Position numbers and translations under genes: made by a program. From IMG/VR virus record IMGVR_UViG_3300028610_001325, positions 1 to 27,514 of that record: a stretch of DNA of 27,514 bases. One strand, 5' to 3'. Source of the DNA: a virus. How positions within the stretch are numbered: the stretch's first letter is position 1; every line of letters starts with the position of its first letter. Below are positions 4,898-21,300 of this stretch, piece by piece. Under the pieces are notes generated by a model, which made no database searches, had not been told where the DNA came from, and was given only the letters and a program-made list of their open reading frames with translations.

Positions 4898-6406
4898 ATG
4901 CCTTTTGAAAGTCCACAAACTTATGGTGCCCCACCGGGTACTCCGTCCAGTGCTGGTCCACAGATTCGCACTGATTATTATAAACGCAAAGCATTGGTCG
5001 AAGCGTCCAAGGAAATGTACTTCGGTCAGTTGGCTGATGTAACCGCTATGCCGAAAAATTTCGGTAAGACCATTAAGCTTTATCACTACATGCCTATTCT
5101 GGATGATCGAAATCAGAATGACCAGGGTATTGATGCTAGTGGTGTTAGCACAGCTGCTGCTTTTGTTGCTAATGTAACTCTCACCAAACAAGTCATTATA
5201 CTTGTAGCTCCGGCTGCTGATGGCGGTGGGTCTTTCTATTTTGAAAGTGTAGTTACTGCGGCTGACCACGCAACTGCCATTGCCTTGGCTGATGATATCT
5301 CCGAAGGTAAGGTATGGGCATGGGCAATCCAGCAAGGTTACGTTGCATCTTCTACGCTTGATTATGCAGCTACGAAGACCGCTCTCGAAGCCGCTGGTTG
5401 GACTGTAACGGCCCAAAATAGCGGTGACGAATACGAGAACTACGGTAACCTGTATGGTTCAAGCAAAGACGTTGGCGTTATTGCTTCCAAGATTCCGGCT
5501 CTGTCCGAGACTGGTGGCCGCGTTAATCGTGTTGGCATGAAGCGTATTGAGCTGAGTGGTTCACTGGAGAAGTTCGGCTTCTTCGATGAATATACACAGG
5601 AATCTCTTGACTTCGATACGGATGCAGATTTGCTTCAGCATCTTACTACCGAATCTGTCAAGGCTGCAAACGAAATCACGGAAGACCAGTTGCAAATCGA
5701 TTTGCTGAATGGTGCCGGCGTTGTTCGTTTTGCTGGCGATGCAACTTCAACTGCTACGCTTGGCGGTTCTACCGCTGCTGCTAATGCAGAAGATGTAGTT
5801 GTATACGATGATCTCATCAAGCTCGGTATCGAGTTGGATAATAACCGCACTCCCAAGAACACTAAGGTAATCACCGGTTCCCGGATGATTGATACCAAGG
5901 TGGTCAATGCGGCTCGTTATGCCTATATCGGTTCTGAACTGCAACCTGCTCTAATGCGTATGACTGATTACCACAGTGAGAGAGCCTTCTTGCCTGTGGC
6001 ACAGTATGGTGCAGCTACCACGATTGCTCGTGGTGAGTTTGGCGCAGTTGGTGACTTCAGGTTCATCGTTGTTCCTGAAATGATGCATTGGCGTGCTGCT
6101 GGTGCAGCTGTTGGTGCAACCGCTGATGAGGTTGTTAACTGGTCTGTTGATCAGGCTACTGCGGCTGCTAAGGTCAACGTGTATCCAATCCTGGTTGTTG
6201 GTGATGGTTCCTTTACGACTATTGGTTTCCAGACTGATGGTAAAACTGTGAAGTTCAAGATCACTCACAAACGGCCCGGCAGAGATGTTGCTGATCGCAA
6301 TGACCCGTATGGCGAGGTTGGGTTCTACTCAATCAAGTGGTACTATGGCTTCATGCTACTGCGTCCTGAACGCTTGGCAGTACTGAAGACGGTTGCTACT
6401 CTTTAA
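4898..6406 (+). CDS. Major capsid protein, N4-gp56 family
   Basis: The 502-residue protein matches the N4-gp56/P22-coat-like HK97-fold capsid family. Segments I recognise are NQNDQGIDASG, GNLYGSSKDVGV, GGRVNRVGMKRIELSG, KFGFFDEYTQESLDF, KVITGSRMIDTK, VVPEMMHW, DGSFTTIGFQTDGKTVKFK and the C-terminal SIKWYYGFMLLRPERLAVLK. Residues about 82-183 are extra compared with the compact family pattern, in which IDASG runs almost directly into NLYGSS, and look like an inserted domain. A strong AGGAG lies seven bases before the ATG. The gene is followed by a strong terminator hairpin. The GC content is clearly higher than in flanking genes (55% in the 60-base line at 5461), with many C/G-ending codons, as is often seen for a very highly expressed capsid gene. 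Confidence 0.92.
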   Translation: MPFESPQTYGAPPGTPSSAGPQIRTDYYKRKALVEASKEMYFGQLADVTAMPKNFGKTIKLYHYMPILDDRNQNDQGIDASGVSTAAAFVANVTLTKQVIILVAPAADGGGSFYFESVVTAADHATAIALADDISEGKVWAWAIQQGYVASSTLDYAATKTALEAAGWTVTAQNSGDEYENYGNLYGSSKDVGVIASKIPALSETGGRVNRVGMKRIELSGSLEKFGFFDEYTQESLDFDTDADLLQHLTTESVKAANEITEDQLQIDLLNGAGVVRFAGDATSTATLGGSTAAANAEDVVVYDDLIKLGIELDNNRTPKNTKVITGSRMIDTKVVNAARYAYIGSELQPALMRMTDYHSERAFLPVAQYGAATTIARGEFGAVGDFRFIVVPEMMHWRAAGAAVGATADEVVNWSVDQATAAAKVNVYPILVVGDGSFTTIGFQTDGKTVKFKITHKRPGRDVADRNDPYGEVGFYSIKWYYGFMLLRPERLAVLKTVATL

Positions 6407-6421
6407 GAGTAACAACAACCC

Positions 6422-6450
6422 GGTTAGCCCCCATGTGGGGGCTAACCTTT
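6422..6450 (+). terminator. Strong hairpin terminator after the capsid gene
   Basis: GGTTAGCCCCC at 6422-6432 pairs perfectly with GGGGGCTAACC at 6437-6447 around an ATGT loop, giving an 11-bp GC-rich stem followed by TTT. The U-tract is short, so termination may be partial. That would lower expression of downstream genes relative to the capsid while still allowing readthrough. A second, weaker inverted repeat (ACTCTTTAAGAGT, 6398-6410) overlaps the capsid stop codon just upstream. Confidence 0.8.
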
Positions 6451-6495
6451 CACGCAAGGATGCAATTAATACTTTACTAACCATAGGATATCGAT

Positions 6496-7107
6496 ATGAC
6501 AAATACACAAACAAAATTACAAATAATTCGTGAACAAGCTGATAGTTTAGGCGTTTCATACCACCACCGCGCAGGTGTCGACAAGATTCAAAGTCTTATC
6601 GATCATTATCTTGTAGCACAAAATAATTTAAATGTGACAGATGAAGAAAAACCTACACCAACTGTAGAATCTACACTCAGTAAAAAAGATAGACTTCTTG
6701 CAAAACCCGTAATACCGATGGCTCCCGAGAAGTTTAAACAACAACGTTTATCAGAAGCGCGTAGATATGTAGGTAGGCTTGTTCGTTGCAGGATCCAGAA
6801 CATGAATCCAAACAAGAAGGACTGGCCTGGTGAGATTATATCTACTGGTTCAGCAAAACTTGGAACATTCAAAAAGTATGTACCTTTTAATTCTGGAGAA
6901 CCGTACCATATTCCTCAAATTATATTTGATGTAATGAGTGAAAAGAAATGTAGTGTCTTTTATAATGAAAAAAATTCATACGGGCATCAAACAAGGCGAA
7001 GTCGTTTAATCAATGAATATGTACTCGAAATATTACCATCATTGACTCCAGAAGAATTGTCAGATCTTGGTCGCACACAAGCATTAGCAGCGGGACAAGG
7101 CGCGTAA
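6496..7107 (+). CDS. Virion-associated protein with N-terminal helix-extension-helix-type motif
   Basis: The 203-residue protein follows the capsid gene, the position of N4 gene 55. Residues about 9-40 (IIREQADSLGVSYHHRAGVD, then KIQSLIDHYL) fit a short HeH/LEM/SAP-like helix-extension-helix unit, often found in phage head and nucleic-acid-binding proteins. After a Lys/Pro/Thr-rich linker, residues about 80-180 form a second basic domain (RYVGRLVRCRIQNMNPNKKD, later HQTRRSRLINEYVLEILPSL). AGGA lies eight bases before the ATG. The 89-base gap before it contains the capsid terminator and no clear promoter. Its role is unknown; a minor capsid or DNA-contacting structural protein is plausible. 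Confidence 0.65.
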   Translation: MTNTQTKLQIIREQADSLGVSYHHRAGVDKIQSLIDHYLVAQNNLNVTDEEKPTPTVESTLSKKDRLLAKPVIPMAPEKFKQQRLSEARRYVGRLVRCRIQNMNPNKKDWPGEIISTGSAKLGTFKKYVPFNSGEPYHIPQIIFDVMSEKKCSVFYNEKNSYGHQTRRSRLINEYVLEILPSLTPEELSDLGRTQALAAGQGA

Positions 7108-7787: not shown

Positions 7788-10166
7788 ATGGGCCTTTTTA
7801 GTAGTTCCACTGAATATTTTGCATATGCAGGTTCGAGTGACTTATTTGAAGAAGATGAAAGACCTGATACTGTAAAGGCATTAATGCTTCAAGCTACTAT
7901 TGGCAATGAAGTAACAATCAGTGAATCCATCAAGTTAGCATTACAAACAGATATGTATGCACGTGCGCGTAGTATGATTCGCTACGCTTTACGTTCATTT
8001 GTTCGTGGACTACCAGAAACAAACGCAACTCGAGTAATAGTTACTATTGAGGCAATTGACGCCGCAATTGAATCAGAACTTGGAGTACCTGTTTCAGTGC
8101 GTTGGCAAGTTTCTGGACCTTTAAATGAAGATTTCCATATTGATCGACATCTAAAAGAAAATTATTTAAATCCAGTATTCTTTCCCTGGCCTGAAGGGGA
8201 TCCTGTGGATCCTACATGGGATGAGAATAGGGATATAATTGAAATACCTGTTATTAATCCTGATACCGGTATCTACTACACTACAGACAATAACCCAACG
8301 TATAGTAGGGTTTCTCCTTCCTCTCCTATATACTCAATATCATTTCCATATACAGATAATTTAGGGCAACCTGCAGTTTGGGCTATGCCTGGAACTGCTG
8401 ATTTCACAGTTTTTGATGCAGGCGATTGGGTGCAAGCAAGATACTGGATATTACCAATTGTTCCTGGACAGGAAACATTTTATTGGGTATATGAAATTGG
8501 ATCAGGCGGGCATCCGGATTTAGATGCAGATATAGAATCAAGAACCATTGAAGGTGAGTACTTACCCGTTGCTATACTTATGCATGATAAAGTTTGGTTT
8601 GATGATCCTATTGGTACAGATTTAGAGATTACAACAAATAGGTTATTAAAAAAACTTGCACTTGATGGTACAGAAATTAAAGAAGATTATCTTATACAAA
8701 AAGCTGAAGATGACGCATCACAAGATCAGGACAAAAGTAATGCTGAAGAATGGGATTTCTTCATTCATTTTGCTGTACCTATTCATAGCAAAATACGCGG
8801 TTCATTAGAGTATTTGTATCATTTCTTTAGGTTAATGAGACCTGCTTCAAATAGTTTCGATTTCTATCAGGCAGGTATAGCAGGCGGCAATACTCCTCTA
8901 TTTACAGAATTATTAATTACAGAGGGTGATGTAAATGGTTTTAATGTTGAACTCAGATGGCACTATATACACTCAGAAACATTCCCTGGTGAGTTTTTAG
9001 TTAATGGTGTTCCACTATTACCACGTCGCATGCATTCTGTACTGGTAGAGCGTACTGCATCTAATGATGCGGCATATAGGGTAGTGTTAGAAGAAATACA
9101 CGGTACTGGTATCAATATTGGCACATGGAGCGAAGATAATTCCACTGGGTATCACGATTACATCGTTGTTACACAGCAACATCAAGATTCAGCGGGTGTG
9201 AAATCATATACACGTGTTATTGTCATGGGCCCCAGTATGGCATATGTTATTAACACATCTGAAGATAGTGGAGATTTTAGATTCAGAAAAGCGTTACCAC
9301 TATTATTTGGTTTAGAAGAGGAAGAAGACGAATTTAGACTACCAGTACATATTGGAGCTATGAACAATGTTTCTCGTATGCATAGAGAAGAAATGTTATC
9401 AGATGCGCTATGTGCTACTGTATTTCTAGTTGAAAGTAGGAAAGTTAAATGGTATCAAACAGGTTTCTTTAAATGGTTAATCATTTTAATTGTTGTAATC
9501 ATCATAGTGCTTTCATTTCGTTTTGAATTTTTACCTAAATTAGCTGCTTTAGCATCTGCAGCAGTAGGAACTACGGCCGCAGGTTTATGGCTTATATATG
9601 TAACTCTAACATTTGCACTAGGTTTTCTTATATCTTTTGCTGGATCTCTTATTGGTGGTAGACTAGGTATACTATTTGTTCTTGTTGGTTCATTGGTGGC
9701 AGCACGAGCTAATCCATTTTCTAATCTCAGTGCAAAATGGGGATCATTGACTACAAAAGTAAGTTGGGGATCCGCATTTGAGTTTATAAAAGCAACTGCT
9801 CCATTTACAAATTTTGCTATGACTGTAGCCCAGGATATAAGTTTACAGAAACTAGAATCTGATATGCGAGAGTTTCTAAAAACCGCGCGTGAGAAGCAAG
9901 ATGCACTACAAGATGCGTGGGATGCGCTTGGTCCATTACCAACTTGGCTGGACCCAATGGATCTTATTAGGATACAATCTACTACATACATTGAATCAGC
10001 GGATAACTTTATAGAACGAACTTTAAATGCTAATCCAGGCTTATTAGGGTATGATTTGATAAGTAACTTTATAGAAATGGCATTAATACTTCCCGAGGAT
10101 CAGGGAGATATGAGTATAATACAAGGTGTGTTTAATGATTTTGAACGACAAAGAGGTGCGGCATAA
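7788..10166 (+). CDS. Large virion protein with C-terminal membrane segments (candidate ejection/tail protein)
   Basis: The 792-residue protein has a mostly soluble, aromatic- and acidic-rich N-terminal part (residues 1-555) and then a cluster of hydrophobic helices at about 560-580, 598-625 and 626-642 (KWLIILIVVIIIVLSF, WLIYVTLTFALGFLISF, LGILFVLVGSLVAA). A helical C-terminus follows. A phage late-gene product with multiple membrane helices, placed just before coiled-coil ejection-type proteins, is probably injected or membrane-inserted during DNA entry (inference). No clear Shine-Dalgarno sequence precedes the start, which lies seven bases after the previous stop, so coupling is likely. 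Its stop overlaps the next start (TAATG). I do not recognise the soluble domain. No catalytic motif was found. Confidence 0.6.
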   Translation: MGLFSSSTEYFAYAGSSDLFEEDERPDTVKALMLQATIGNEVTISESIKLALQTDMYARARSMIRYALRSFVRGLPETNATRVIVTIEAIDAAIESELGVPVSVRWQVSGPLNEDFHIDRHLKENYLNPVFFPWPEGDPVDPTWDENRDIIEIPVINPDTGIYYTTDNNPTYSRVSPSSPIYSISFPYTDNLGQPAVWAMPGTADFTVFDAGDWVQARYWILPIVPGQETFYWVYEIGSGGHPDLDADIESRTIEGEYLPVAILMHDKVWFDDPIGTDLEITTNRLLKKLALDGTEIKEDYLIQKAEDDASQDQDKSNAEEWDFFIHFAVPIHSKIRGSLEYLYHFFRLMRPASNSFDFYQAGIAGGNTPLFTELLITEGDVNGFNVELRWHYIHSETFPGEFLVNGVPLLPRRMHSVLVERTASNDAAYRVVLEEIHGTGINIGTWSEDNSTGYHDYIVVTQQHQDSAGVKSYTRVIVMGPSMAYVINTSEDSGDFRFRKALPLLFGLEEEEDEFRLPVHIGAMNNVSRMHREEMLSDALCATVFLVESRKVKWYQTGFFKWLIILIVVIIIVLSFRFEFLPKLAALASAAVGTTAAGLWLIYVTLTFALGFLISFAGSLIGGRLGILFVLVGSLVAARANPFSNLSAKWGSLTTKVSWGSAFEFIKATAPFTNFAMTVAQDISLQKLESDMREFLKTAREKQDALQDAWDALGPLPTWLDPMDLIRIQSTTYIESADNFIERTLNANPGLLGYDLISNFIEMALILPEDQGDMSIIQGVFNDFERQRGAA

Positions 10167-10624
10167 TGGCTCACAATAATGCAAATCAATCTAGTAGTGG
10201 TTTTGGTCCTATTGATTTTTCGAATCAAGATCAAAGTCATATTGCACAATCTTCTGCAATTAATGCGGGTAATACCGCTGGTATTTTTCCAGAACTTGAT
10301 GTATTAAACCCAAGTAACCAAACGGGGGGTGGTACTTTTGGGGATTTGGACTTTAGGGGAAAGATTGGTGCTATTGGCACTGGATTTCAAGCCTTTTCAT
10401 CTTTGGCAAATATTTATGCTGGCTTTAAGGCCATAAAATTACAAAAAGATCAGTTTAAATTTCAAAAGGAAGCATTCAATAAGAATTTTGCAGCTCAAGC
10501 AAAAAGTTTTGAAAATGAACTTAGAGATCGCTTTGCCGCACGAAGTGCTTCTGCACAGGTAAATAACAGAGATTTCCAAAGCTTAAGTACTTTTCTTGAT
10601 CAACGTGCTATTCCTGGTACTTAA
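10166..10624 (+). CDS. Small internal virion protein, T7 gp14-like in layout
   Basis: The 152-residue protein has a disordered N-terminus rich in Asn, Gln, Ser and Gly. A Gly/Ala-rich hydrophobic helix follows (KIGAIGTGFQAFSSLANIYA), and then a basic coiled segment (LQKDQFKFQKEAFNKNFAAQ). This combination is seen in the small ejection proteins of many podoviruses (T7 gp14 type), which insert in the outer membrane as part of the ejection channel. It overlaps the upstream gene by one base (TAATG) and precedes two larger ejection-type genes, matching the small-medium-large order of T7 gp14-gp15-gp16. Function is inferred from layout and composition. Confidence 0.55.
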   Translation: MAHNNANQSSSGFGPIDFSNQDQSHIAQSSAINAGNTAGIFPELDVLNPSNQTGGGTFGDLDFRGKIGAIGTGFQAFSSLANIYAGFKAIKLQKDQFKFQKEAFNKNFAAQAKSFENELRDRFAARSASAQVNNRDFQSLSTFLDQRAIPGT

Positions 10625-10638
10625 TACGGAGTTTTGAT

Positions 10639-12309
10639 ATGCCAACACCTCTTACTTTCCGTAGTATAAACCTACCAGCGTTTAACACATCTGGGTTGAA
10701 TGCTGCTTCCTCTGCCTTTGCATCTGCTGGTCAAGGATTTGCAGAACTTACAGATCAATTACGTCGTGATACTGAACGTGAAGATGAATTACGTACTAAT
10801 GAGGCCATTTCAGCCGCACTGAGTGGTGGACCTAGTATATCAACTGATCGTAGAGTAGATGCTGAAGCTTTACGCTCTTCTGTGGCAGCTAGAGATATTA
10901 CTAAAAGTGACCTCTCTAGTGCAAAATTGAGTAGAGCTCTTACTGGTATAGAAACTGAGCAAGCACAATTTAACCTTGATAGTGCGCCTGCAAAACTTGA
11001 TGCTGATTTGAAACAAAAATTGGCTTCTGCTGAGGCTTCTAGATTACGCGGAGACTTTGCATCTTTCCAACTACAATCTGCTGAAGCTGCGGATTTACGT
11101 GCAACAAAGTTGCGTGAAGGTAGACTTGGTGCAGAACGTGATTTTGATGCACTTTTTGCTGGACAAGTTAAATTTGAATTAGATCAAGTACCGGGTATAG
11201 TTGAGGATTTAAAAAGACAAGGATTCAGTCCCGAAGAAATACGTACTCGTGTTAGGGATATTGCAGCTAATGCTCGTGCAGAAGGTTTTGCAAGAGTTGG
11301 TGATCTTATACCCGAATTCTTACAACGTACTAAAACTAAATATGGTCTCACTGATGCGGATTTACAAGGTACCACGGCCAAGCAAATTAGTGATGTTGCA
11401 TTGCAAGCAAGCGCTACAGAAGCGGCTTCTCGTCAGGTAGATCAAAGAGCTACTGATAAGTTTGTTAGTGGTGTTATACGATCTGCTAGAAATCAAGATA
11501 TCTCTGGAATAATATTGGATAGTAACGGTAATGCACGTCCTGCTCAAAATAAAGAAGAAAAAGCTGGTAACAAATTAAGCGATACAAAAGGTGATTTATC
11601 CGCGGTTATTGCACAACAATTTAATGTTGAATTAGATGATGATCTGGTAGCTGCACAAAGAGTACTAAAAACCGTTGATGGTAATCGATCTGCATTTATA
11701 CAAGCAGTTAATAACTCTAAAGATGTATCAGAACCTTTACTCGGCTTTGGTGGCGGTAAAACTACAATTGATTGGAAAGCAGCTCAATTGCAAGCTAATA
11801 TACAAAAAACTGCTCTTACACAATTTGCCAATACATTCAATGATCAAGAACCATTGCGTGGTTTTAGTACTGCTGATGTAGCAGCTGGATTACGAGAAGG
11901 AACTGCTGATGTAGATTTTCTTAGTTCGGAAGCTGCAGTAACACCAATAACTACACCTACTGATGATGTATCACCTACTCCACCTGTAAGTCGTGTGGAT
12001 CAATTTGTTAACACATTACAAGGCGCCCAAAGTAGGTTTGATAATTTAATAAATGATAAATCTTTTACTGGTAGTAGTAAATTACGTAATTTACGTAATA
12101 AAGCAACATCTGGTACGGGTACATTAGCTAGTCAAGAAACAGCTTTAAATAGATTCCTTAAGGCATTAGAACAAGCTGAAAGTTCAAGATCTTTACAGGA
12201 TAGGAATGCAGCAGCTATAGCAGCGGGATTTAGAAGCGCTGTTCAAAAATCAAGAGAAGAACAAGCTGAGATTGCTGATCTTAGAAAAAGACTTGAACAA
12301 GAAAGATAA
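10639..12309 (+). CDS. Coiled-coil internal virion (ejection) protein
   Basis: The 556-residue protein is helical, Ala/Gln/Arg/Glu-rich and has no membrane segment or enzymatic motif. The N-terminus (LNAASSAFASAGQGFAELTD) is typical of phage internal proteins. Long coiled-coil stretches cover about residues 30-180 and the C-terminal ~80 residues (SREEQAEIADLRKRLEQE). Between them is a Thr/Pro linker near residues 435-455 (TPITTPTDDVSPTPPVS). A GGAG ribosome binding site precedes the ATG. It sits between the gp14-like protein and the giant protein, the place of T7 gp15, so it probably forms part of the ejected tube that carries DNA and the vRNAP across the periplasm (inference). Confidence 0.55.
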   Translation: MPTPLTFRSINLPAFNTSGLNAASSAFASAGQGFAELTDQLRRDTEREDELRTNEAISAALSGGPSISTDRRVDAEALRSSVAARDITKSDLSSAKLSRALTGIETEQAQFNLDSAPAKLDADLKQKLASAEASRLRGDFASFQLQSAEAADLRATKLREGRLGAERDFDALFAGQVKFELDQVPGIVEDLKRQGFSPEEIRTRVRDIAANARAEGFARVGDLIPEFLQRTKTKYGLTDADLQGTTAKQISDVALQASATEAASRQVDQRATDKFVSGVIRSARNQDISGIILDSNGNARPAQNKEEKAGNKLSDTKGDLSAVIAQQFNVELDDDLVAAQRVLKTVDGNRSAFIQAVNNSKDVSEPLLGFGGGKTTIDWKAAQLQANIQKTALTQFANTFNDQEPLRGFSTADVAAGLREGTADVDFLSSEAAVTPITTPTDDVSPTPPVSRVDQFVNTLQGAQSRFDNLINDKSFTGSSKLRNLRNKATSGTGTLASQETALNRFLKALEQAESSRSLQDRNAAAIAAGFRSAVQKSREEQAEIADLRKRLEQER

Positions 12310-12324
12310 TTATAAGGATAAAAA

Positions 12325-15300
12325 ATGAGCACATCATTTGATGCTTTAATGCGCTCTCTGCAGCAAACACAGCAGAGTTTTGGTGAAGCCAGGCAGCGCC
12401 GTGTAGAAGACAGTGCTGAACGTAAACGTACTACTATTGATCCTAACTTTGAATCATTTGATCCAGATCTGTATGATGTTACAGATGCGGATACATTGAG
12501 ACATCGTCGTACGGGCGAAGAAATTCGTATTCAAGGTCCAAAAGGTGAATCACTTGATTCTTTTGAGACACAAGAAAGCACATACTTAAATAACCCACGA
12601 CGAGCGGAATTTCACAAGCGTGCTTATGCCCAAGCCTTTGGTGTAAAACGCGAAGATGTAACAATAAAAGATCTCACTGAATTGGGTGAAATACAAAAAG
12701 AACGTTTGAATAATAGCCTAGAGACTTTACGCGGTGTAGGCCTAAATCGAACAGGTCAAGATCAATTCGGACGTACTCTTGCCACATTGGATGATTTTGG
12801 ACCACTTGAAGATGCTAAACGTTTGGGTGGTAATGCTAGCTTTTTTGCACCAAGTAATTTTGCTGGACAATTAAGATCCATTGCTTCTGGTGAATTTGGT
12901 GAAACAATTGCTCCTCAAGAACGTTCCCTTAAACGTGCTTTGTTGGGTGATCAAGCTGTTAATTTAATAGCTGGCGCTAGTCGTATGGCTAATAGTTTGC
13001 TACAAGCTGGATCCGTACTTACAGGTACCAATACAGAAGCTGTAACCAATTTCTTTAATGCAAATAAAGAACGTATTCAAGGTTTCAAAGAAGCGTTATC
13101 TAGTGAAGATCAACTATTCCGCGAACGAATGGATGCTAGACGATCGTCTTTGAATCCAGAACTATTTGAATTACGTAAACAGAAAGCTATTGATGCTGGT
13201 AAATCTGAAAAACAAGCTGCTATATCTGCTGGTATTGATGAATTTACAGATCGAATAGGGTTCCTTATTGATAACCCTGGTCGAATTTTAGACGCGACCA
13301 TCGAATCACTGCCTTATATGATAGGTGTAGGTGCAGTTGGTCGTGTTGCAATAAATGCAGCAGTCAAACGTATAGGCGAAAATATATTAAAGCGTACAAC
13401 AGCTAAATCTGTTGCAACAGGTGTTGCAGAAGCACCTGAAATACTTGCTGCACAAGCTGCTAATATTACTAACCGCTTTCTAGGCAGTAAAACTGGTCAA
13501 CAAACATTAAACAGAATTGCAACCAATACAGGTACAACAACTGTTGGTTTAACAGAGGGTTTATCTAGCTCTGCTGATGTTTACGACTCTATTGCTAATA
13601 TGACTGAGGAAGAAGCTTCTCAATCAGAAGAATATCAAGCACTCCGTAAACTGGGTTTAGATCATAAGGAAGCCACTCGCCAACTTGCAGAAACGGCATT
13701 TATGGATACCTTGGCTACAGTTACATTAATGGCTGGCGCTGCCGGCCGCCTTACAGGTGCTGCCGCGTTTGAAAGCAAGTTGTTTACTGGATTGGCCAGT
13801 GCCCGTAAAGGAGCTAAAACGATTGTACAACAAGTTGACGATGTAGGGGCAGCTGCTACAGCTGTCAAAGCTACTGCTGCTACTGCAGTTCCTCAAAAAA
13901 CAAAAGTTTTACGTACTGCGGCTAAAGCTGTTGCCACCCCACTGGTAAGAGGTGTTAAACATATTTCAGGGCCCGGTGCTAGAGAAGCTGTAGAAGAAAC
14001 TATTCAATCTGGCGGTGGAGAGTTTTTATCACAGTTAGCATCATTTGATGCTACTGGCGAACCTATTGGGCCTGGTGTTGGTGCTGCTACAGCTGAAGGT
14101 GCTGTTGTAGGTTTTGCATCAGGTGCTGGTGCCAGTGCAGTTACAGATTCTTTGAAAGCAATTGCAAATGCAGCTACAAAACCTCGTAGTAATTCTTCCG
14201 GTTTGAAAGAACGTAATAAAGTTGCTCAATCAATCGCTGAAGCTGGCACTATTGTTCCTGGTGGATCCATTTCTGATATTAATAATACACAACCTGCACC
14301 TGATACAGATTTTAAGAAATCTTATAACGATATAATTGTAGGTATACAGGAAGAAACTATTCAACCTTTGGAAGCCATTAATAGATTAGTTTTATTCCAT
14401 GATTTACATATTGCACAGGGTAATACATTTACTCCTGAAGAAGAACAATTACACAAAAAATTACTAGGTATTTATAAAGAAGAACTTGCCAATCGAATGA
14501 ATGACATTCGTAAAACACCTGAATCAAAATGGACAGACTTAGATCGTGCAGTAATTAATGCAGCTGGTGTATTAGGTATAAAAAAGAAAGCAGATATTGA
14601 AGAGTTACCTGAATCTGGTGTTGAAGCCCTCGAGATTTCTGCTGAAATTAATGCACTTGAAAAAGAATCCGAACAACAATTGGCTGAACAAGTAACGAAT
14701 GCTAATACAGATACTGTACGACAGCGTGCTATTGATGTACATAATGAAAAGTTTTCTGATGCAATAGGTAGTAAGGGCCCTGGTCTTGCGTGGTACAGAC
14801 GTGAGATGGTAAATACAATGACAGACCCTGATATAGATAGTCGCGATGGTAAATTCCTTGCTTTATCTAAAGATTTAACCAATTTTATTGATACACAAGT
14901 TAAAAAATTACAATCTAATATAAATAAGAAAAGTTCTCCTGTTTTTATAGAACAATTGCAGAAAGAACTTCAAATTATGAGTGATACTCATAAAGCATTG
15001 AAAAAACAGTTTTTGGTTTGGAATCCCAACGCAACTTCTGAGATTGTAGAATCTGCTAAAAAAGATGATTTTGTACCTATAGATGTATCAGATATACCTA
15101 TTCCTACTGATGTTACACCCAGTACTGTATCAATTCCCAGTAAAACACCTGTTAAAGCTGCTGAGAAGCCCCCAGTTGCCTCCAGTTCTATTAAGTCTGA
15201 AAAGATACCTAAGATTGCAGTAAAGGAACCTGTAAGGGCTCCTGAGCCATCTGAGAAGCAAAAAGATACACGTACTGTTGATGAATTACGATCTCGTGCA

Positions 15301-18300
15301 AAAGAATTGGGATTAACGGGTTATTCTGCACTTAGACGCACAGAACTCTTGCAATCAGTCGTTACTGCAGAAGCTAAATCATTAGACAGTAGAGAAGATG
15401 CTGCCGAAGTTAAAGACGACGCTGTGGCGGAGCCTATAGCGGCGTCTGAGACTGCTGATGTAGTTGAAATTGCTGATACTACCATTAAAGAAACAAAACC
15501 TGCAGTTATACAAACTACAGAAGAAAAAATTAGTAATAGATTAGCTGCTACTAAAAGCTTGTTACGTCGTATTAAAGATCCAGACTTTTTAATTGCAGAA
15601 CTAAAATTATCCAATAAATCTGATAATAAATTTTTACAAGATCAAATTGAGTCTGGTGTATCTGCTAAAGAAGCTATTAATGCAATTGTGAACCGTATTG
15701 AACCGGACCCAACAAAGCGTAATATTTCTTTTAAATCAACTATTGATAAAGAAGTACTTGATAATGCTATTCAAATAATTGGTTTATTAAATGCTGAAAA
15801 AAGTGTACCTGCAATTGGTATTTCAGATCATTGGAATAATTTTGTTGAAAATACTAAAGATAGCTGGCAATGGCTTAAAGGTGAATGGATTTGGGGCACC
15901 CAAAAACCCCTTGAAACAGATGAACATTTTAAGCAAATTGCTATTGAAGCTGAAAAGAAGTTTGCGGCAGCCAAACTGCCAACTAGCATAGCTGATGCAT
16001 TTGCACGTAAATCACAAGTTAGTAATACACTATTTGGCGCCATACCTAATTTAATGGATGTACTTAATGATTTAGGTGCAAAAAATAAGTTATTACAAAC
16101 ACTTCAAGTAAAACCAGCTGAAGAAGTTGCATTAAATGCATTTATTAGCTATTACAATCAATTTAAAAAGACTTTAGAGGATAATTATCGTGAATTAGAT
16201 ATTAAAAAGAGCTTTGCAGATATAACATTGCAAGAACATGGTATACATTACTTTGAAAATAAACTTGGAGAAATAGACCCTAATGTAATTGCTGCTATGG
16301 CTTTTGAAGCTATGAATTGGGCTACACATTCTGGTGCACAAACAGCCTGGAATGATCAAGAAGCAATTAATAGTATATTAGGTCGTGATGGTGATACTTT
16401 AATTACAAATAAAGAAGCAGAAATATTACGTACAGCCGGCACAGTACGTAATAATGCAGCCAATGAAATTGGCCAAGCAATTTGGAAGCACCTTAATTTA
16501 GAAAAAATAGTGAATACAGATATTAATTCACTATTTATGGATAAACTTATTGCCACTCTAGGTGGTACAGCTTTATCTGTATTGGCTAATCAAAATAGAA
16601 TAGAACTTACTACAGTTGATCGTAAATGGTTTCAAAAAGCACGAGAACAAAATCCAGATAATCATACAACTGTAATAGAAGGACAAAATACTAAAGATAA
16701 ACGTGTAAATTTTGTACGTAATGCTCAAATTTTGATTGATGTAGAACAAGGACAAGTTTGGAAAGATGAAAATAATAGTTTAATTGTAGCTGTACGCGAA
16801 GGCCAAAGTATGTTTACACGTTTGTTTGGTTCTGATCCTAAAGTACGTATACCTAGTTTTACTAAGCCGACAAAAGTACCTAATACAATTAGCCGTTCAG
16901 TTGCAAATATTAGTTCAAAAATGAAAGAACGTGTATTAAATATGTCTCAACGAGCATGGCAAGTTGACACATCAGTTATGTCAGTTTTGGCTCGAATGGA
17001 TCAACGTTCATACCTTAAGATGGCACATAAATATGTAGATGAATCAGAAATTGACAGTAAACATGTTACACAACGTGAAGGTACAAGGGGACGTAATGCA
17101 GGACTAGATAGGGATTTTTCTAGTGCAAGGGAGTGGAACGAACAGTATGGAAGCAGACCGTTCTACTTCGATTATAAGATGATTCGTAATGGTCGAATAC
17201 ATATTAATAGTAATGTAATAAATCCACAAGCAAATAAATTGCATAGATTTATGTTTGGTATGAAACAGTGGGAAGTATCAGTACCTGTGAATCCCAATAC
17301 AGATGCTGGTAAAAAAATTGTAGAAGACATGAAGATTGCAATTGCTTTGGGTTTTGATATTAATGCTGATAAAAAACTTAGACATGATGTATTAGCAGAA
17401 ATTGAAGTTGTACTGCAATCTTTAGAGATGAAAGATGCATTAGATGTTTTAAATAAAGATGGTACAGATCAATACAATGAAGATGATATGGCAGCTTTTG
17501 CAAAGTTTTTGCAACCATCAAAAGGTAAACCAGGTGGTGAAGGAACACATACTTTAGCTGCACTTGTTGCGTGGAATACTTACAATAATGCTACAGAAGG
17601 CCATGTTACAATCAGTTTACCGATGGAAACTGATGGAATTACAAATGGTTTTATCGCCGGTTTATTACAAACTCCAACTAATGTAATTCAAAAATCTTAC
17701 AAAAATTTACTTCGTGCAGGTGGTTATTTCTTCAAAGGTGATCCTTGGAAGAGTTTTCCAGAATTTATAGCCGATGGTGGCCGAGACAATTATCAACAGG
17801 TAGCTGATTCAACAGCTAAATTTTTACGAAAAATGTCTAAAGGTATTCTTAATGTTTCACCCAAGAAACCTGTAGATTTCAGAGATAATGATATACGAAT
17901 TAATTCTAGTAAAATTGTTGGTAGCGGGTTATTACCTGATATAACTGAATTATCATTAAAGAAAGGTCGTGATTGGGCTAAAAATCCCTTAATGGTAGTA
18001 GCATATGGTGCTTCTGTTGCTTCTGTAATAAGAGCTATTACTGAGGCAGCTTTTGAAGATTTTCACACAAATTTAGCTGAGGCTGTACAATCTGATAATC
18101 CATTAGAAGCAATTACTGCCGCGGTAAATGCCGGGCATGACATAGCTAATGTGGTACTTGCTGCTAATCGTAAATCTGAAATTTCAAAAGATAAAGGACC
18201 ACTTAATAAAAAAGGACAACCCATAACTTTTAGCGTTACAACTGATAATGTTCTCACATTAGCTAATCGCAAAGAGTATGGTGGAGACTTAAATAAATTT

Positions 18301-21300
18301 GCTACTAATTTTACTTTATCAGGTGAAATTTTAACTTTATTTAATTTAGGTATTGAAAAGACTTATGGAGCAGCCTTAGGTGCAGCTTTAGAAGCTAAAT
18401 TGGCACCAATACAAGAAATAAGAACACAATTAAATCATGCAAATAAATTGATGAATATTATTTTTGTGCAGGATTTTACACGTAGAGTAGATACATTACA
18501 AAAATCAAGAGGAATAATTTTAGGTCCAGATGATAGACGTGTTATATACGCAGATATGCACAATGAAGGTTTGCTTCCTTCAGTAGCAACTGCATTTTCA
18601 GAAAAATTTAGTGAAAATTTAGAAACTACTAATTTTCAAACAGAATATATTCCAGGTAAAGATGGTATAGGTGAAGCTAAATTTAATAGTACACTTGATA
18701 TTATTGATCGTGCATTTGCAGGTGAAGAAGGTAAAGCTGTAACACCTAAAGGTCAAGCTGCTATTTTTACACGCATTATCTCTAATATGCCAAATACCGA
18801 TGTTGGTGTTTCTGGTGTTGTAAAACTTATTCATGCTTTGGATGGTGTAAATAATTCTGAAGCTTGGGGAAATAATCCTGTACTCAATGTACATGATGCA
18901 CAAGTAAGTAAATTTACAGATGCAGATAAAATTGCAGGTGATACAAATGCAGATTTTATAAGTATGCATGCTGGATATAGTCTTGGTGATGCAATTTTAG
19001 AATCTACTGGTCGTATGATGTCATTACTACTTGCAGAAACTGATTCAAGACTTAGTCCACAATTTAAACAAAAAATATATAATGATTTTATTGATCATTT
19101 AGTTGAATTTAAACATTATACAAAAAAAGATTTAAAAGAATTTGATACACAGTCATTAACAGAACAATGGTTTGCAAATTTACAAAATGAAATATTACAA
19201 TCCAATGAAGGGCGTAAAATACTGTTCGAAGATGGTAGTTTTATTAATCAATTTGCTAAAGAAGGGTCTGAACGATCTAATCCAGAAGGCGGACCTGAAT
19301 TGGCTCAAGCTGATGAAACATTAGCGCAATTAAATACTCTTTCTGTAAATGAAGTACTTCGTAATTTCCGCGGAGAATTACTTGAAGGTAAACAGATAGA
19401 ACAAGATAAACAGCAAATTATTGCAGATATACAAGAAAAAGTGATTTCACAAGAGAACCCACTTAATATTGTACGTACTTGGATTAATCACACAGCTCCA
19501 TCAGCTGAACGTTTAATTGATGTTTTACAAGCTGCATATACAGACACACCTGCAGGTAATACATTAAGAGTATTGTTTAATATTCTTAAACCTCATTTAA
19601 ATGGTGTAAAGGTTGTAAGTCAATCTATTCCAGGAGAAAAAGAAGAGGGTAAAAGCGCTAAAGGTAAATATTTTTTAAGAAGTCGCACAATAGTATTTAA
19701 TGAAGGCGTAACTGATCCTAATATAGCTTCGACAGCATTTCATGAAGCTATACACGCTGCTAATGTAAATAGATTAGAAGAATTAGAGGAACAGAATCCA
19801 GATGAATTTGAAATACTATATAACAAAGCAATTAATTGGGCTACAAATTTACGTAAAGATAAAGACGCTGATAATGTTAAATATAGGTTAGCTACTCAAA
19901 TATTACGTTATAAACGTAATCAACCAAAAGCTAGTCCAGTTAGTGCTGTATCTGAATATCTTGCATATGCTTTAACTACTCCAAGTCTTGCAGAAGATTT
20001 TACAATATATAGTGATAATGTTGTTGAACTACTTGGGGATTTGTTTAGTTCTTTACAGGATCCCTCCACTGGTGCTGTGAAGTTGCATTCTACTGGTGAA
20101 TCAGTAGATAGAACATTATTTGAAAATAAGTTTGAAACACTTGAAGCTGATAAAATGCAACAGATATTTGATCAGTTATCTAAACATGACCAGGGCCCAG
20201 TAGATTTAGGTCATCAACAAACTTTAAATACATTACTCAATAATTTCATTATTCCTGGTATTGAATCCATAGAAGATGTCATTCAACAGGAAATTGCAAA
20301 GGATCCATATGCAACAGAGCACATAGGTGAAATAGAGGGCGGTATTATTCGTTTACAAGCTGCTGGTAATGTATTGTCATCTAATGTTGACATGTCAATG
20401 CAAGAAACAGCCTTACATGAGTATACACATGCTATTCTTAGATCCGCAATAGATGGTAATCATTTTGTACAGAAAGAAGCACGTAGATTATATGAGTTAG
20501 CTAAAGAAGGTATTACACCAGACGACTTTTTACCTGAGAAAATATCTGGAAGTTCTATTATAGCTCGTGAAAAAGCGCAAGCTCGATATGACCATATTTT
20601 TGATAATCCAAATGGTGTGCAATATCATGAGTTCATGGCAATTGCATTAACTAATCAGGCTTTTGCCACCGCTCTCTCTAATCTTGATAACAAGGATGTT
20701 GTGGTAAGGATACCAAATTGGAGCGGTGGCATTTTAAATCAAATGCTGGAATTAATGCGTACAGCTATTCAATGGCTTTCTGGACAGTCTTTACGTACAA
20801 ACAAAGGTAGTATACACCAAGGTGTCTTTAGTTTAGCTAAAGCAACTGTTGCTATTAATCAGCGAAATATGCAACGTACTCAAGACCTAGCAAATGGCCA
20901 AGATCAAACAAGTAAGTTAAATCGTGTCAATGATAGGGTTACAGGTATTATCAATAATAGGATAATAAGTCCCCTTCAAGCTGGTTTTGCTGCTAGTGAT
21001 AAAAAGCGTTTAGATCCAAAGAACCCAAACATAGCTGGATTCATTAGGTCCACGACACACGTAGCACTTGCCAGTAAAAACTCTGAAGTACGTAAAGCAT
21101 ATAGTGAAGTATATCGATCAATGGGTGGTGCAAAAGATAACCTGTTATTTGATCTTATCCAGGAAGTTAGTCCATGGAATCAAGAAAACATAGGTACTGA
21201 TGCAGCTCCTGGCTGGATTGATTTATTACGCAAATCTAAAGTAATAGTTGATATGGCTAGACAAAATATTACTGAACATACCCGTTCTTTTATAGACAAA

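Follow-up and report, generated by a model that had tools for sequence, protein, structure and literature searches.

The virion RNA polymerase gene and its surroundings

The window analyzed here is a 27,514-base contig of an uncultured virus (IMGVR_UViG_3300028610_001325), and the features discussed below are listed in Table 1. The product of the open reading frame at 12325-23634 matches the virion RNA polymerase (vRNAP) family of PHROGs, phrog_2206, with an E-value of 1.1e-302. The T7-like motifs R..NPQ..K..R, ExDGxTNG and RxxAKNPLM..YG are kept in this protein, based on an alignment with the vRNAPs of N4, LUZ7, SP-058, phi 1, MS02, PG11, pYD6-A and PT15-A5. Upstream, matches are found to PHROGs for portal, major head, structural and gp52-position proteins, with the genes ordered as in N4. 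The gene in the gp52 position (10166-10624) matches phrog_2646, and the gene in the gp51 position (10639-12309), which has no PHROG match, is assigned from the N4 gene order alone. By the PHROG match, the motifs and the gene order, the product is identified as an N4-type vRNAP. It shares with N4 gp50 the polymerase core motifs, the overall size, HExxH and the gp56-gp50 gene order.

Table 1. Features of the window, with the evidence on which each is placed (residue numbers are those of the vRNAP)
Feature	Position	Strand	Basis
Two ejection-protein genes upstream of vRNAP, placed as gp52 and gp51 in N4	10166..12309	+	PHROG match and gene order (see text)
vRNAP, N4 gp50-like, 3769 aa	12325..23634	+	phrog_2206, T7-like motifs
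SNase-like domain, residues 37-172 (core 42-157)	12433..12840	+	Held-out HMM, iterated HMM (37-189), hhalign, AlphaFold models, fold matches
D54-A-D56-T57 (SNase D19/D21 equivalents), in the turn from strand 1 to strand 2	12484..12495	+	D in 25/25 at both
R68 in IRIQG, equivalent of R35, strand 3	12526..12528	+	24/25; model strand E33-37 (segment starting at residue 34)
R68-D78 loop, with five more residues than that of S. aureus SNase	12529..12555	+	R+10 vs R+5
D78-S-F-E81, equivalents of SNase D40 and E43	12556..12567	+	25/25 each
Extended helical region, first helix to strand 4, residues ~92-134	12598..12726	+	Alignment, AlphaFold helices
FGR150-TLA, equivalent of YGR87 motif, R just before strand 5	12766..12783	+	R 25/25; segment strand E118-122 after R at 117
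Hydrophobic stretch, residues 321-350, near aligned N4 membrane-spanning region	13285..13374	+	Hydropathy, N4 alignment
Polymerase core, basis of tree and relative searches	16102..18204	+	Core alignments

The homology of the cultured vRNAPs to this protein starts only around residue 196-317, and the N-terminal region of the window vRNAP is identified as an add-on relative to them. The membrane-spanning region of N4 vRNAP comprises residues 224-278 (PMC12633501), and the hydrophobic stretch of the window protein lies C-terminal to the domain described below.

Two HExxH motifs are found in the C-terminal half of the protein, at residues 2473 (19741-19755) and 2698 (20416-20430), at the level of the motif only; the HExxH of the N4 C1 domain has already been described (PMC12633501). 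A Rho_N/SAP-like stretch (residues 984-1018, 15274-15378) is located in the linker between the N-terminal domain (NTD) and the RNAP, with a Pfam E-value of 1.2e-4 that is under the curated cut-off.

A staphylococcal nuclease-like domain at the N-terminus

An earlier note on this DNA had proposed a domain related to staphylococcal nuclease (SNase) at the N-terminus of the vRNAP, with D54, D56, R68, D78, E81 and R150 as the equivalents of SNase residues D19, D21, R35, D40, E43 and R87. The residues that it named, D54 (12484), D56-T57 (12490), R68 in IRIQG (12526), D78-S-F-E81-T (D78 at 12556, E81 at 12565) and FGR150-TLA (R150 at 12772), are all found at the positions given for them. The domain itself is supported here by profile homology, the predicted fold and six conserved positions, and the equivalences hold as well, with the six columns conserved in relatives and superposed in hhalign.

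On its own, the N-terminus of the window protein (first 300 residues) matches nothing in Pfam, PHROGs, PDB sequences or the cultured phages, and the hhalign comparison of the single sequence with SNases is not significant. As the single sequence is below the detection level of Pfam and hhalign, its membership in the SNase family rests on its relatives. These were obtained by searching viral contigs with polymerase-core alignments, which gave 57 and 80 loci, partly overlapping. A nine-sequence alignment of the core was too diverse as a query, and the bare N-terminus or single polymerase stretches recovered one contig, with a protein identical over the compared stretches. Many of the recovered vRNAPs open with the pattern D-G-D-T ... 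R ... D-x-x-E ... [Y/F]-G-R, and the N-terminal domain is present in 28 other vRNAPs of uncultured phages (29 including the window).

A profile of 15 other vRNAP N-termini, with the window held out, finds window residues 42-157 at an E-value of 3e-22 in a database of 4,053 ORFs of the fetched loci and the window protein, which greatly exceeds chance expectation. The match persists, at 1.3e-16 in the same database, when the relative nearest to the window and the member most like SNase are also left out. The held-out profile also recovers further members of the domain, and an iterated HMM covers window residues 37-189. One member, L127, is above the Pfam cut-off for SNase (30.4 vs 21 bits, E=5.8e-7). 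Among PDB sequences, the best matches of the family profile are SNases (E=1.7e-8). They are still the best matches for a profile without L127, L057 and L063 (1.8e-5), and the possibility that the Pfam-positive L127 drives the profile was therefore rejected. Profile-profile comparisons with four other SNases in hhalign have probabilities of 96.4-96.8% and E-values of 1e-9 to 3e-10, with the D/D/R/D/E/R residues superposed. By these profiles and the models below, residues ~37-172 are assigned to a divergent SNase-family (PF00565) domain.

The conservation is concentrated on the expected residues. In an alignment of 16 sequences, with 18-33% identity to the window, the only invariant columns are those of D54, D56, R68, D78, E81 and R150. 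With 25 sequences, D54, D56, D78, E81 and R150 are present in 25/25 and R68 in 24/25, where the one exception is an alignment gap. The 25 copies are mostly 16-31% identical to the window, and the six catalytic columns are the only near-universal ones. The first 16 sequences were chosen partly by a D-x-D-[T/S] motif and the nine later ones came through the profile. The selection made no use of the R, D, E and R columns; these columns and the nine profile-found members therefore provide independent evidence for conservation. As judged from the alignments, the catalytic positions D19, D21, R35, D40, E43 and R87 are all present in the window domain.

The structure prediction suggested in the earlier note gave an SNase-like barrel. 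The AlphaFold2 models have pLDDT values of 84.7 (16 sequences, longer model) and 88.7 (25 sequences, trimmed model), and their elements are arranged in the order strands 1-3, helix, extra helix, strands 4-5 and helix. In the models, strand 3 contains R68, strand 5 is immediately preceded by R150, and D54 and D56 occupy the turn that joins strands 1 and 2. The equivalent residues of SNase are in the same elements, with the same order of strands and helices. An OB-like five-stranded barrel with a helix between strands 3 and 4 is thus predicted with moderate confidence. For the longer model, the best Z score in VIA-align is 6.9, with a Tudor-domain entry (7cfd) among the matches, and for the trimmed model it is 7.9 (95 residues, rmsd 3.1), with SNases making up all of the best 50 matches; Z scores below 8 may mean merely a common arrangement and are not decisive by themselves. 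Foldseek finds no SNase near the top with the longer model, for which the E-values are weak. With the trimmed model, the first 34 matches are all SNases, also with weak E-values (best 0.011). The SNase identity is convincing because the sequence and fold results agree.

The window domain has in common with the SNase family (PF00565; thermonuclease, PDB 1snc/1ey0) the six catalytic positions, the predicted element order and the profile homology. There are differences, however. The window domain is fused to the N-terminus of a vRNAP, is not detected by Pfam from its own sequence, carries a five-residue insertion and has a longer helical region. In S. aureus SNase, the equivalents of R35 and D40 have a spacing of R+5, compared to R+10 in the window, or about five extra residues. 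The R+10 spacing is also found in L015, L070 and L038, and the canonical R+5 in L057, L063, L127 and L045. Moreover, strand 4 is preceded by a more extended helical part than that of S. aureus SNase.

Distribution among N4-like phages

For 20 cultured N4-like phages with diverse hosts, N4 and LUZ7 among them, a profile search of the vRNAP regions found no SNase domain. The idea that the domain is present in all N4 vRNAPs and merely unannotated was rejected, as 0/20 cultured phages carry it. The search of prokaryote genomes gave three vRNAP relatives, and 0/3 have a significant SNase match. The conservation that the earlier note had asked about among N4-like vRNAPs therefore holds in part: the named residues are kept in the domain-bearing relatives, but N4, LUZ7 and the other cultured N4-like phages are without the domain.

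A tree was calculated for 124 polymerase cores; it is a quick tree, with long branches and many weak forks. All 29 SNase-bearing vRNAPs fall in one group of 45 rows (SH-aLRT 97). The SNase label undergoes 5 changes on this tree, compared to 25.6 for shuffled labels, and 0/500 shuffles are as low. PT15-A5 is the sole cultured phage in the group, and is without the SNase domain. One ancestral gain and several losses is the simplest reading of the tree. By sequence, the SNase-bearing vRNAPs are confined to one large, mostly uncultured clade, and within the sample to uncultured viruses only.

In several loci the vRNAP is split into consecutive genes on the same strand: L121 (5544-17284), L036 (5050-17203), L124 (5202-17997), L123 (5910-18192), L027 (4495-18231), L099 (6988-17355), L062 (3403-17180) and, with two genes, L110 (5208-15703). 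The split genes resemble the NTD (with the SNase at its start), the RNAP and the CTD, near the three-domain layout of N4 gp50. The SNase domain remains N-terminal even in the split-gene vRNAPs. In a survey of N4-like phages, splitting in AD45-P1 and pSb-1 was treated as miscalling or read-through, and vRNAPs under 2500 aa were filtered out (PMC10654107). In L106 (9178-10402), the polymerase reading frame is interrupted close to where the core starts, and the upstream SNase-bearing ORF is intact.

Other vRNAPs have a different domain in this position, as seen in L026 (6308-7207; also L040 and L042) and L008 (2743-3642). Vibrio-type vRNAPs have a phage-lysozyme-like N-terminus. The match of the L026 domain to PF00959 (2.6e-4) is just under the cut-off. 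The N-terminus of pYD6-A appears transglycosylase-like by eye, with no Pfam match.

Possible roles and relation to known accessory enzymes

The NTD is the least understood part of N4-type polymerases and is unresolved in cryo-EM. In N4, the vRNAP enters the cell by ejection and inserts in membranes through its NTD, and the tunnel is made up of gp51 and gp52 (PMC12633501). By cryo-EM and AlphaFold, this NTD is helical and lipid-binding, and no nuclease is named (PMC12633501). The corresponding paper on DEV describes an NTD with no similarity to known structures, again with no nuclease named. The window differs from N4, LUZ7 and the rest of the cultured phages examined, whose vRNAP N-termini carry no SNase domain.

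By analogy with N4 gp50, the vRNAP with its SNase domain would be packaged in the capsid and, as infection begins, would leave by way of the tail and the tunnel of gp51/gp52. The domain would then refold into what is likely to be a divalent-metal-dependent phosphodiesterase with low sequence specificity. It would sit N-terminal to the membrane-inserting part, where other vRNAPs bear lysozyme-like domains. The N-terminal end of a vRNAP may well be exposed at the envelope, as a lysozyme-like domain is found at the same end in L026. The most likely place of action would be the cell envelope or the ejectosome, on nucleic acid that is not shielded by the ejection channel. Possible targets are host DNA or RNA near the entry site, or the DNA of a competing phage. 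The phage's own genome could be spared if the enzyme requires calcium and stays unfolded inside the capsid. On the other hand, the phage genome would itself be at risk from a nonspecific nuclease at the ejectosome if this were not controlled. As the six catalytic residues are kept in the relatives, these phages probably deliver a nucleic-acid-cutting enzyme with their polymerase. The cutting of nucleic acid in the host, raised in the earlier note, may reasonably be inferred from how the active site is conserved. Taken as a whole, an SNase-family nuclease domain with a complete active site, ejected with the vRNAP and most likely acting at the envelope or ejectosome, is the explanation that we consider probable.

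The main rival is a nuclease that reaches the cytoplasm together with the polymerase and, as soon as infection starts, breaks down host DNA, mRNA or nucleic acids used in defence. We judge this possible but unlikely. Free Ca2+ in the cytoplasm is low, which speaks against activity there. Yet a Mg2+-dependent SNase is known (PMC3585158). A nonspecific cytoplasmic nuclease would also cut the entering phage DNA and the early transcripts. The active site, however, is complete by sequence, other vRNAP accessory domains have been proposed to act on host targets (PMC5512222), and an SNase-like gene is among the putative establishment genes of pLS20-family plasmids (PMC8708921).

The domain could instead process the phage's own nucleic acids, by shortening early transcripts of the vRNAP or by cutting the phage DNA as it enters, consistent with its being physically joined to a polymerase that binds the incoming genome. 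The split-gene relatives have nuclease and polymerase on separate polypeptides, however, and most vRNAPs lack the SNase domain, so that such a role is improbable. A non-catalytic module that only binds nucleic acid or has a structural role, like the degenerate SNase domains of Tudor-SN-like proteins, is quite improbable. OB folds often bind nucleic acid, and the Tudor-domain entry is among the structural matches, but a binding-only module is not expected to keep its catalytic residues while the remainder diverges to ~20% identity. A chance resemblance, to which the missing Pfam match of the window alone and the weak Foldseek E-values might point, is already contradicted by the held-out HMM, the PDB profile, hhalign and the fold results, and is very hard to credit.

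The preferred explanation, delivery of a nuclease to the envelope or ejectosome, can be extended. In this large and mostly uncultured group, sister to the cultured N4-like phages, an ancestral virion-delivered SNase at the leading end of the polymerase may be a calcium-triggered weapon against unshielded nucleic acid of competing phages or the host, with the phage's own genome inside the channel. This extended version is doubtful. The domain, predicted to have an intact active site and kept across a very divergent clade, gives the NTD an enzymatic role that can be tested. It also leaves to be explained how a naked genome escapes cutting by a nuclease that is packaged and ejected alongside it.

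The window protein resembles the N4-RNAP polyvalent proteins, in which one ejected polypeptide likewise combines an RNAP, a zincin-like peptidase and an extra enzyme (PMC5512222). Its RNAP is joined to a zincin-like HExxH domain, judged at motif level only. The N4-like RNAP fusions in Iyer et al. 2017 include peptidase, ART, lysozyme/transglycosylase and PBECR RNase, and SNase is not mentioned in the main text (PMC5512222). The IMG/VR-based survey of N4-like phages mentions no vRNAP nuclease (PMC10654107), and a literature search covering few subscription papers found no publication joining vRNAP with SNase or thermonuclease. We take the fusion as new because the polyvalent-protein survey, the N4 and DEV structure papers and the N4-like survey name no such nuclease. 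Ejected polyvalent proteins of this kind are known, but the putative nuclease is new among their accessory enzymes, and it would widen by one enzyme class the range of activities that phages deliver along with a polymerase.

Stand-alone phage SNases, such as SP15_233 of Bacillus phage SP-15 and the YncB-like endonuclease of a Microcystis phage, have the same fold family and motifs as the window domain. They are separate small genes, in contrast to the window SNase, which is part of an ejected-type polymerase. Among the loci recovered here, L087 has a stand-alone SNase gene (5929-6762, Pfam E 1.3e-20) directly upstream of a vRNAP without a fused SNase.
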